The notes under the pieces were generated by a model. The model ran no database searches. It was given only the letters and a program-made list of their open reading frames with translations, and was not told the DNA's origin. Below, one piece after another: positions 15,156-51,518 of a DNA stretch of 64,000 nt. The position numbers and the translations under genes were made by a program. Source of the stretch: an endosymbiont of Escarpia spicata (GTDB taxonomy: Bacteria > Pseudomonadota > Gammaproteobacteria > Chromatiales > Chromatiaceae); the NCBI GenBank assembly GCA_003349915.1, contig QFXE01000005.1:372001-436000 (forward strand). The letters are read 5' to 3'. Every line of letters starts with the position of its first letter. The first letter of the stretch is position 1.

Positions 15156-15167
15156 GAAGGGATAATA

Positions 15168-15402
15168 AAGGTTGAAGGTAAAAGGCTAAAGGTTAAAGGT
15201 TAAAGGTGGCCGTACCAAATAGACAGACCGAGATTCTTCGTCATTCCTGGCTCTTCTCGCCTTTCAGGTTCCAGGTTCCAGGTTCCAGGTTCCAGGTTCC
15301 AGGTTCAAAAAATCTTACTATGACCCAGAAACGCATCAAACCATAATCTGAAAACGGCTGTGAATTCGTCCTTTAACTTTTAGCCTTTAACCTTATTTTA
15401 CC
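15168..15402. repeat. Dispersed intergenic element, copy A (235 bp)
   Basis: The gap between nth and the ArsC-type gene is filled by an element bounded by inverted arrays: AAGGTAAAAGGCTAAAGG... on the left (15174 onward) and CTTTTAGCCTTTAACC on the right (to about 15393). Its interior, read on the minus strand (GGACGAATTCACAGCCGTTTTC...), aligns along almost its full length with 19311-19508 read on the plus strand, including GCGTTTCTGGG / GCGTTTCCAGG and AGAGCCAGGAATGACG / AGAACCAGGAATAACT. A 7-bp tandem array inflates this copy. No open frame of note. Function unknown. Confidence 0.8.
15264..15305. repeat. Tandem CCAGGTT array, about 6 units
   Basis: The 7-bp unit CCAGGTT repeats perfectly five times (15271-15305) with a partial unit before it. 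It lies inside copy A of the dispersed element and has no counterpart in copy B, which reads GAATTCTGCACC at that place. This looks like slippage expansion and is likely variable between strains. Confidence 0.9.
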
Positions 15403-17882: not shown

Positions 17883-18926
17883 ATGACATATAGAAACCAC
17901 TCGGATCTTGCGCCCCCCGGTACAGGCTGCCTCGGCATCCTGCTAACCAACCTCGGCACACCGGACAGCCCCACCACCAGTGATGTGCGGCGTTACCTGG
18001 CGGAATTCCTCAGCGATCCCCGTGTGGTGGAATTTCCCAGACTGCTCTGGAAGGTCATTCTACACGGCGTCATTTTGCGCATCCGTCCAAAGCGCTCCGC
18101 CGAATCCTACCGTACGGTCTGGACAGAGAGTGGTTCACCACTCCTGGACATCTCCAGGCAACAGACGGACAAACTGCAGGCAGCACTCAACGAACGGTTC
18201 GACAGCAAGGTAAAAGTCGTCCTGGCAATGCGCTACGGCAACCCCTCCATAACCGACGGATTGGAAACGCTGCGCCGCGAAAACGCCGAGCGCATCCTGA
18301 TACTGCCGCTCTATCCCCAGTACTCCGCCACGACCACCGCCTCAACTTTCGATGCGGTAACAAGTGAACTGCAACACTGGCGGCGGTTACCGGAACTGCG
18401 CTTCATCAACCACTACGGCCATGAAGCTGACTACATACAGGTGCTGGCCGACTCAATCCAACGCTTCCGCGAAGAACATGGCGCGGCGGAAAAACTGCTC
18501 TTCTCATTCCACGGTATTCCGGAAGATTATGCCGCCGCCGGTGATCCCTATCCCAGCGAGTGCCGTTTCACCGCCAAACAGGTTGCCGAAAGACTCCAAC
18601 TGGAAGACTCTCAGTGGCAATTCAGTTTTCAGTCCCGTTTCGGTAGAAAGGAGTGGATCAAGCCCTATACCGACCAAACCCTTATCTCTTGGGGCAAGGC
18701 AAAGGTACAACACGTCCAGGTGGTCAGTCCTGGTTTCTCCGCCGACTGCCTGGAAACACTGGAAGAGATCGCGGTGGAGAACAAGGGTTATTTTCAGAAA
18801 GCGGGCGGCGGCATCTATGAATATATTCCCGCCCTCAACGCACAACCCGACCACATCGAAATGCTGGCAGACCTTGTGGAAAAACACACCCGGGGCTGGC
18901 CTGAATCAAACACCGGAAAGATCTAA
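17883..18926 (+). CDS. hemH: Ferrochelatase
   Basis: Inserts Fe(II) into protoporphyrin IX, the last step of haem synthesis. At 347 residues it is a typical bacterial length. Visible motifs: GILLTNLGTPDSP at the N-terminus, YGNPSI, LPLYPQYSATTTAS, the metal-binding His210 in LLFSFHGIPEDY, and VSPGFSADCLETLEEI with the second ligand Glu. Probably membrane-associated by its family, though no membrane segment is obvious. Its stop codon overlaps the start of the DUF971 gene (TAATG), so the two are translationally coupled. Confidence 0.97.
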   Translation: MTYRNHSDLAPPGTGCLGILLTNLGTPDSPTTSDVRRYLAEFLSDPRVVEFPRLLWKVILHGVILRIRPKRSAESYRTVWTESGSPLLDISRQQTDKLQAALNERFDSKVKVVLAMRYGNPSITDGLETLRRENAERILILPLYPQYSATTTASTFDAVTSELQHWRRLPELRFINHYGHEADYIQVLADSIQRFREEHGAAEKLLFSFHGIPEDYAAAGDPYPSECRFTAKQVAERLQLEDSQWQFSFQSRFGRKEWIKPYTDQTLISWGKAKVQHVQVVSPGFSADCLETLEEIAVENKGYFQKAGGGIYEYIPALNAQPDHIEMLADLVEKHTRGWPESNTGKI

Positions 18927-19312
18927 TGGAAAAACAACCCCGCCCCGTCGAGATCAAGGTACATCAGCAATCCCGCTTTCTCGATATCGCCTTCGACGAT
19001 GGCGCCCACTTCTCGCTGCCCTGTGAATATCTGCGGGTCTACTCACCCTCTGCCGAAACCCGGGGTCATACCCCGGCACAGGCAAAACTGGAGACCGGTA
19101 AGGAAATGGTCTCCATTGCCGATATCAAACCCGTGGGCAGTTACGCGGTTAAAATCATCTTCGATGACGGGCATGACTCAGGACTCTACGATTGGAAGTA
19201 TCTCTACAACCTGGGCAAGTTCCATGATGAACTCTGGCAGGCCTATCTCGAAAAGCTGGCCGCCATTGGCTATACGAGAGAGGACCCGGAATTGCCGGAG
19301 CGGGAAAACTGA
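18926..19312 (+). CDS. DUF971 family protein (GBBH-like N-terminal domain)
   Basis: A 128-residue protein consisting of the zinc-ribbon-like domain also found at the N-terminus of gamma-butyrobetaine hydroxylases. Family sequence: RPVEIKVHQQSRFLDIAFDDGAHFSLPCEYLRVYSPSAE, then DIKPVGSYAVKIIFDDGHDSGLYDWKYLYNLG. The usual metal-binding cysteines of this domain are not all present (one Cys, in LPCEYLR). Members are often linked to Fe-S cluster or ubiquinone genes; the precise role is uncertain. It overlaps hemH by one base and is co-translated with it. A dispersed repeat begins at its stop codon. Confidence 0.9.
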   Translation: MEKQPRPVEIKVHQQSRFLDIAFDDGAHFSLPCEYLRVYSPSAETRGHTPAQAKLETGKEMVSIADIKPVGSYAVKIIFDDGHDSGLYDWKYLYNLGKFHDELWQAYLEKLAAIGYTREDPELPEREN

Positions 19313-19508
19313 AGGTTCAAGGTAAAAGGTTAAAGGCTAAAGGACGAATTTACGGTCAGCTTCATATTACGGCTTTACGCGTTTCCAGGCCAAAACCATG
19401 TTTTTGAATTCTGCACCAATAAAGAACCAGGAATAACTAAAAACCTAGCTGGTCCGTTGGCACTGCCAATTTTCGCCTTTAACCTTTCACCTTTCGCCTT
19501 TAACCTTC
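19311..19508. repeat. Dispersed intergenic element, copy B (198 bp)
   Basis: Fills the gap between the DUF971 and argG stop codons. It begins GAAGGTTCAAGGTAAAAGGTTAAAGGCTAAAGG and ends with CCTTTAACC...CGCCTTTAACCTTC, giving long imperfect terminal inverted repeats. The interior aligns with copy A (15168-15402, opposite orientation). The element supplies the last codons of argG (Glu-Gly-stop, from GAAGGTTAA) and starts within the TGA of the DUF971 gene, so it sits exactly between two convergent coding regions. Function unknown; a transcription end or a mobile non-coding element are the options. Confidence 0.8.
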
Positions 19509-43973: not shown

Positions 43974-44145
43974 GAGTGACTCCTGATTGTATTGGGTTAG
44001 GCCTCCATACATCCCATGAATCGACCTCCCCGCGAAAGCTGGGAGGCACCCCGAACCATGTGCCGATGTATGTGTGGATTAGTTTTGCTCCCGCACGGGG
44101 AAAAACCCCGTAAAGTGAGCAGCGCGAACCGTTTGCGATTCAGCG
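43974..44145 (-). ncRNA. rpsB mRNA leader, likely S2 autoregulatory region
   Basis: About 170 nt of untranslated leader lie between the predicted start of transcription (near 44145) and the rpsB ATG. On the RNA strand it contains a hairpin ACGGGG/CCCCGT with a 5-nt loop (44095-44111) and CCUCCC/GGGAGG with a 10-nt loop (44025-44046). Leaders of rpsB in gammaproteobacteria are known to bind S2 and repress rpsB-tsf translation. That this leader does so is inferred from position, length and folding only. Confidence 0.5.
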
Positions 44146-51363: not shown

Positions 51364-51518
51364 AACATCATAGTGGAGACGAATATTGTGGATAGTAGTG
51401 TAAATCGTTATCTCCCGGCCAGGCAGTGAGGTTGCCGGTTCCGCTGCGCTTGGACCGGCCTGCTACTGAACTTGTAGGCCTGATCAAGCGTAGCGGATCA
51501 GGCAATACGCTGGGTCAA

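Follow-up and report, generated by a model that had tools for sequence, protein, structure and literature searches.

A family of intergenic elements with inverted heptad arrays whose cores are inverted in place and replaced between related symbiont species

Introduction

Bacterial repeat families are usually described as static copies. In chloroplast genomes, small loop inversions between related taxa occur at hairpins, which are scattered and single. The elements described here resemble these inversions in that related taxa differ in the orientation of a loop enclosed by inverted arms. They differ in forming a dispersed family, whose heptad arms are shared and evolve together, and in exchanging their cores.

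Short tandem units of the same length are known from the TAACTGA heptamers, direct repeats of marine Beggiatoaceae, Cyanobacteria, and Bacteroidetes (PMC4679880). Like these, our elements consist of 7-bp tandem units, are mainly intergenic, occur in many sets per genome, and belong to sulfur-oxidizing Gammaproteobacteria. However, the TAACTGA heptamers form single direct arrays of an invariant unit, mostly upstream of start codons, whereas the present elements are inverted array pairs with free positions around flipping cores, and their units are AAAGGYN or CAGGTNN, not TAACTGA. A second point of comparison is provided by GTAG REPs and REPINs with their RAYTs (PMC3733652, PMC3116915). REP dimers inserted inside longer palindromes have been reported (PMC3733652), and many of our cores hold a head-to-head GTAG REP dimer. 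Yet the heptad arrays and the core ends that we designate T1-T4 lie outside the REPs, many members are REP-less, and REPs also occur outside the elements. BrickBuilt of Porphyromonas gingivalis, a minisatellite-bearing MITE with a 23-bp minisatellite in its middle (PMC4596501), is likewise a short intergenic element with inverted ends and tandem repeats. Here heptads form the arms, whereas there the minisatellite is central, and the abstract mentions no in-place inversion. Finally, invertons (PMC5903667, PMC11892184) resemble our elements in having a short segment, flanked by inverted repeats, whose orientation switches. In contrast to them, our elements have variable crossover positions and non-coding cores, and they lie mostly at gene 3' ends.

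Papers on heptamer repeats and on the genomes of tubeworm symbionts do not, in their accessible parts, mention these elements, and outside subscription-only papers we found no description of this combination of features. We encountered it in a stretch of 64,000 nucleotides (hereafter the window) from the genome of an endosymbiont of Escarpia spicata (GCA_003349915.1, contig QFXE01000005.1, positions 372,001 to 436,000).

Results

Two stretches of the window, A (15168-15402) and B (19311-19508), had been proposed to be gene-free copies of one element, homologous over nearly their full length, inverted relative to each other, and sharing inverted ends. All of this was borne out. The reverse complement of B can be aligned with A along almost its whole length, and the window has no better non-self matches than the two BLAST pieces that join them (67 bp, 78%, E 1e-9; 90 bp, 73%, E 1e-8). 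A and B are confirmed as real homologues. Both are bounded by inverted arrays of the 7-bp unit AAAGGYN (TRF and pattern matches), and the list of open reading frames with translations contains no plausible gene within either.

Copy A begins with a left heptad array, (AAAGGYN)6 (15166-15207, plus strand; TRF period 7, 6.0 copies). It is followed by a diverged T1-type core end, GGCCGTACCAAATAGACAGACCGAG... (15208-15252, plus; T1-end alignment), where the T1 consensus reads GGCCGTGCCACCGGATAGGCCGAAC... and to which the T1 model matches at G000:C2:387193-387248 with E 1.4e-9. Then come an internal direct array, (CAGGTTC)6 (15265-15306, plus; TRF and junction alignment), and a T4-type core end common to B (15307-15369, plus; alignments). 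A right inverted heptad array (15370-15394) and the outer end CCTTTAACC...ACCTAT complete the copy (15370-15402, minus; TRF and sequence). The internal array is missing from B; it consists of CAGGTTA in the relative G068 and is absent in the relative G138. In copy B, the left heptad array (19312-19343, plus; TRF, pattern matches, and ORF list) adjoins the stop codon of the open reading frame at 18926-19312. The T4-type core end (19344-19405, minus; 67-bp BLAST piece and alignment) is the block best conserved relative to A, and the T1-type core end (19425-19470, minus) is strongly diverged, as seen in the 90-bp BLAST piece and a weak T1 model match (E 0.006). The right inverted heptad array (19471-19508, minus, the array running to 19507; TRF and ORF list) overlaps the final codons of argG. 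Two stop codons of convergent genes, at 19310-19312 and the argG stop at 19500-19502, enclose B, and A separates the start of a gene resembling endonuclease III from the end of one resembling arsenate reductases/low-molecular-weight phosphatases (names from translations).

When A or B is used as a query against its own genome (G000; 4.06 Mb, 23 contigs), dozens of array matches are returned. Because A matches 30 or more further places, the pair is not merely a local duplication; with more than 30 other sites occupied, neither of the outcomes that would have refuted the original proposal occurred. The pattern AAGGN3AAGGN3AAGG has 155 matches in this genome, compared with 12 for a reversed control. 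Counted as sites, not arrays, roughly 35-40 related elements are present. From 40 fetched surrounding regions, inspected one by one, we derived a common plan: (AAAGGYN)n, a core of about 40-250 bp, and an inverted (AAAGGYN)n, with no gene between the paired arrays in the fetched loci. The core ends are recurring modules, namely T1, T2 (CTGGCAAATCGAAGATTTGCC...), T3 (GCAAGTATGTGTCCGG...), and the T4/Y type of A and B, which is rare elsewhere in G000 and also occurs at other sites of the relative G120. In many elements, a head-to-head pair of GTAGGCC... REP palindromes sits mid-core, which gives these cores the two inverted GTAG REPs of a REPIN; A, B, and others have none. Being short, non-coding, bounded by terminal inverted repeats, and interspersed in many copies, the elements have the makeup of MITEs. 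Elsewhere in the window, at 51434-51503, a head-to-head GTAGGCC REP pair lies outside any heptad element.

A sequence-only model of T1, the commonest core end, plus two heptads matches in all six genus genomes, with 9-36 matches each, and has no match in 140 further genomes from the family. A pattern scan of named genomes placed an element of the Lamellibrachia anaximandri endosymbiont MAG at the site orthologous to locus L043, which suggests that the genus is the one of vestimentiferan tubeworm symbionts; the other two records it returned come from unrelated phyla and are probably chance. The full element has no match in plasmid and phage collections. Arrays fitting the looser pattern AGGTNNN occur in 39 of the 146 genomes of the family, spread over 18 of its 61 genera. 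They are common in the family and the reversed control also scores in several genomes, so 7-bp arrays as such are not diagnostic. One genome of another genus (G074) has 366 AGGTNNN array matches, far above the own genome, with 0 control matches. A locus in a further genus (L305 in G006, 1501-1643) contains an inverted AGGTNNN array pair around an unrelated core that holds a TATCAGT heptad array, and a single intergenic region of G086 (L310, 1330-1546) carries AAGGGCC, AACCATT, and CCTAGAA heptad arrays side by side. At sucC/sucD, the other genera sampled have no inverted arrays, and one of them has a single array of another heptad.

For flank comparison, about 120 further regions were fetched from five relatives. 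Several species carry an element at most of the sites, and the flanks there generally share about 80-99% identity. The one core-less site found is site A in G120, where only "AAAGGTTTCAGGTTTCAGGT" is present and heptads are retained. In G138, the nth/phosphatase junction region is tandemly doubled (L245, about 1109-2616); both junction copies carry a short T1-type element, oriented alike, and one has an additional upstream T2-REPIN element.

In-place inversion of cores is seen between species. In the relative G020, site A carries its core reversed, with both flanks in unchanged orientation. Over all sites, 77 orthologous core pairs are related in the same orientation, 37 are related and inverted, and 66 are weakly related or unrelated, the thresholds for relatedness being our own choice. 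At 12 of the 31 sites where orientation can be compared, at least one species has an inverted core between the same flanks, and contradictory pairs number 0; the two orientations of one locus that define an inverton thus occur here between species. The cleanest inverted orthologous cores are 98-100% identical, versus 72-77% to the best paralogue: 105/105 versus 68/95 positions at site 9 and 215/220 versus 161/209 at site 4 (both G020 and G068), and 138/141 versus 79/106 at site 3 (G000 and G020). Since inverted orthologues are near-identical and paralogues far less similar, these cores flipped in place and were not inserted independently. Several of the assemblies are fragmented, and short-read assembly may give a loop flanked by inverted repeats the wrong orientation. 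Sites 2 and 10 speak against error in a single assembly, as each of the two orientations occurs there in two or more genomes. Read by eye at three sites, the exchange points differ: at site 6 the core alone flipped and four left heptads were kept, at site 9 the inner GGCT heptads flipped along with the core, and at site 3 three inner heptads did so. Recombination within the repeats therefore fits better than a fixed cut site.

Cores have also been exchanged for other cores. The nearest relative of a core is its ortholog in 93 of 125 cases, and some cores are clearly nearer to that of another site, with 94-95% identity at best. The heptads themselves also turn over. In five of the six genus species the unit is AAAGGYN, and at most tested sites of the sixth, G120, it is CAGGTNN. 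AAAGGCN is preferred in G138 versus AAAGGTN in G000, a preference partly ascertained by the AAAGG-containing queries that supplied the loci. The test in G120 is exempt from this effect, as the flanks of 14 G000 sites served to locate the corresponding places. At 13 of the 14, G120 carries 7-bp arrays, almost all of them inverted pairs, with units CAGGTGA or CAGGTTT, and the cores between them are other or highly diverged ones. With CAGGTNN at 13 of 14 tested sites, heptad sequence changes genome-wide and in concert. At the remaining site, between sucC and sucD (L259), heptads are absent; there G120 has a different, heptad-less inverted repeat (GGGGTCGGAGTCAAACCGC ... GCGGTTTGACTTCGACCCC) where other species carry a heptad element.

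Within arrays, substitutions are distributed very unevenly. In G000, 3 of 660 positions are substituted at AGG versus 56 of 440 at positions 4-5, the next two bases (p 5e-20), and G138 shows a similar pattern. AGG is likewise avoided in G120 (p 3e-5), where sites were fetched by their flanks and arrays had to have AGG in their consensus, the within-array substitutions not being pre-selected. The same constraint holds for heptads three to five units from T1, which lie outside the T1 model. Because AGG is nearly invariant while the next two bases vary freely, a factor may recognize each heptad, and selection for such recognition would be the simplest reading of these substitution counts. The pattern could also arise without selection if a small number of ancestral heptad variants were copied rapidly.

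Most elements lie 3' of genes, and many arrays start no more than a few bases from a stop codon. According to a crude gene call, 24 elements lie between tandem, 9 between convergent, and 2 between divergent genes, although one of the latter two, the sucC-sucD site, is certainly tandem. This context is consistent with purifying selection that keeps elements out of promoters, or with a function at the ends of genes.

Discussion

In-place inversion and core exchange between heptad arrays dominate this family, and they were invisible to the original prediction. The explanation that we favor, with a probability of roughly 0.6, is a non-coding family of MITE/REPIN type whose heptad arms, through recombination or template switching, cause cores to invert in place and to be exchanged and arrays to turn over. 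The heptad arrays would act as short inverted homologies. An element may extrude as a hairpin at the replication fork, or ordinary homologous recombination may act on it, and crossover from arm to arm or template switching would then flip the core. Slippage would make the arrays longer and more uniform, and elements at separate sites could pair, swapping cores and spreading heptad variants. More tentatively, some factor might recognize each heptad. The elements probably first spread by MITE- or REPIN-like transposition in the ancestor of the genus. One point against this mechanism of inversion is that the heptad arms, with 18-60 imperfect bp, offer little length for RecA recombination.

The main rival is a dedicated inversion system, in which an inverton-like site-specific recombinase would read NAGG heptads and flip the cores, possibly as a phase switch for neighboring genes. 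The strong AGG constraint on every heptad, the many sites that flip, and the proximity of the elements to gene ends speak for such a system. However, site-specific recombinases cut at a fixed point, whereas the crossover points at the three sites read here differ, and the mainly tandem or convergent placement, rarely divergent, is unlike that of promoter switches. We therefore regard this explanation as unlikely. A wider form of the idea pictures dozens of intergenic invertible cassettes that flip and trade cores at fixed addresses, their heptad arms read unit by unit by a dedicated factor that co-evolves with the heptad and would thus account for its genome-wide shifts between species; this, too, is speculative, and we hold it with similar reserve.

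It is less probable that the elements are classical MITE/REPIN transposons that inserted repeatedly and independently into heptad landing sites, so that a single site came to hold cores of differing type and orientation. The terminal inverted repeats, the copy number, the GTAG REP pairs in many cores, and the core-less heptads at site A in G120 all agree with this explanation, as do five Y1_Tnp (PF01797) matches in the own genome (L121-L125). However, the near-identity of inverted orthologues, far above that of any paralogue, speaks against it. The core-less site A of G120, the one site at which a target duplication could be sought, still has heptads, and no duplication is seen. The GTAGGCC REP is missing from the fetched stretches around all five Y1_Tnp genes, so linkage of the REPs to a RAYT was not seen there. 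Repeated insertion is thus largely refuted as the source of the inversions, though it may account for how the family first spread and for the replacement of cores. The original suggestion of an undescribed short mobile or RNA element stands insofar as the element is short, non-coding, apparently undescribed, and has inverted ends. Mobility in the transposon sense is not shown: we found no target duplication and, in the fetched loci, no autonomous partner, and most sites are common to several species.

The RNA half of that suggestion is not supported. Structured RNAs or transcription terminators maintained for their hairpin would agree with the location 3' of genes, with the joint switch of heptad type in both arms, and with folding z-scores of -2.8 (A), -6.6 (B), and -11.4 (L043). 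However, good folding is expected because inverted repeats must fold, and the cores are freely flipped and replaced. The check for compensatory changes that had been suggested gave no support: in the fold of a six-sequence A/B alignment, the covariation term is +1.64 (unfavorable), and double changes affect 2 of 37 pairs, both within arrays. Rfam has nothing at A or B; its only match in the window is an ordinary t44 RNA elsewhere (43996-44094, minus strand; 74 bits, E 9e-15). We therefore do not call these RNA elements and consider this explanation very improbable. That A and B are just a local duplication with simple microsatellites, as their distance of 4 kb and their shared, otherwise rare core end might suggest, is refuted by the further sites in the genome and by T4-like ends elsewhere in G120.

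In this one family, in-place inversion at more than one-third of the sites comparable among related species is seen together with exchange of cores between sites and concerted, genome-wide change of the heptad. The family thus offers a natural comparative system in which to measure inversion at short inverted repeats and to ask whether a protein reads the heptad arrays. Should cores also flip inside symbiont populations, this would generate heterogeneity at the 3' ends of many genes in these uncultured symbionts.
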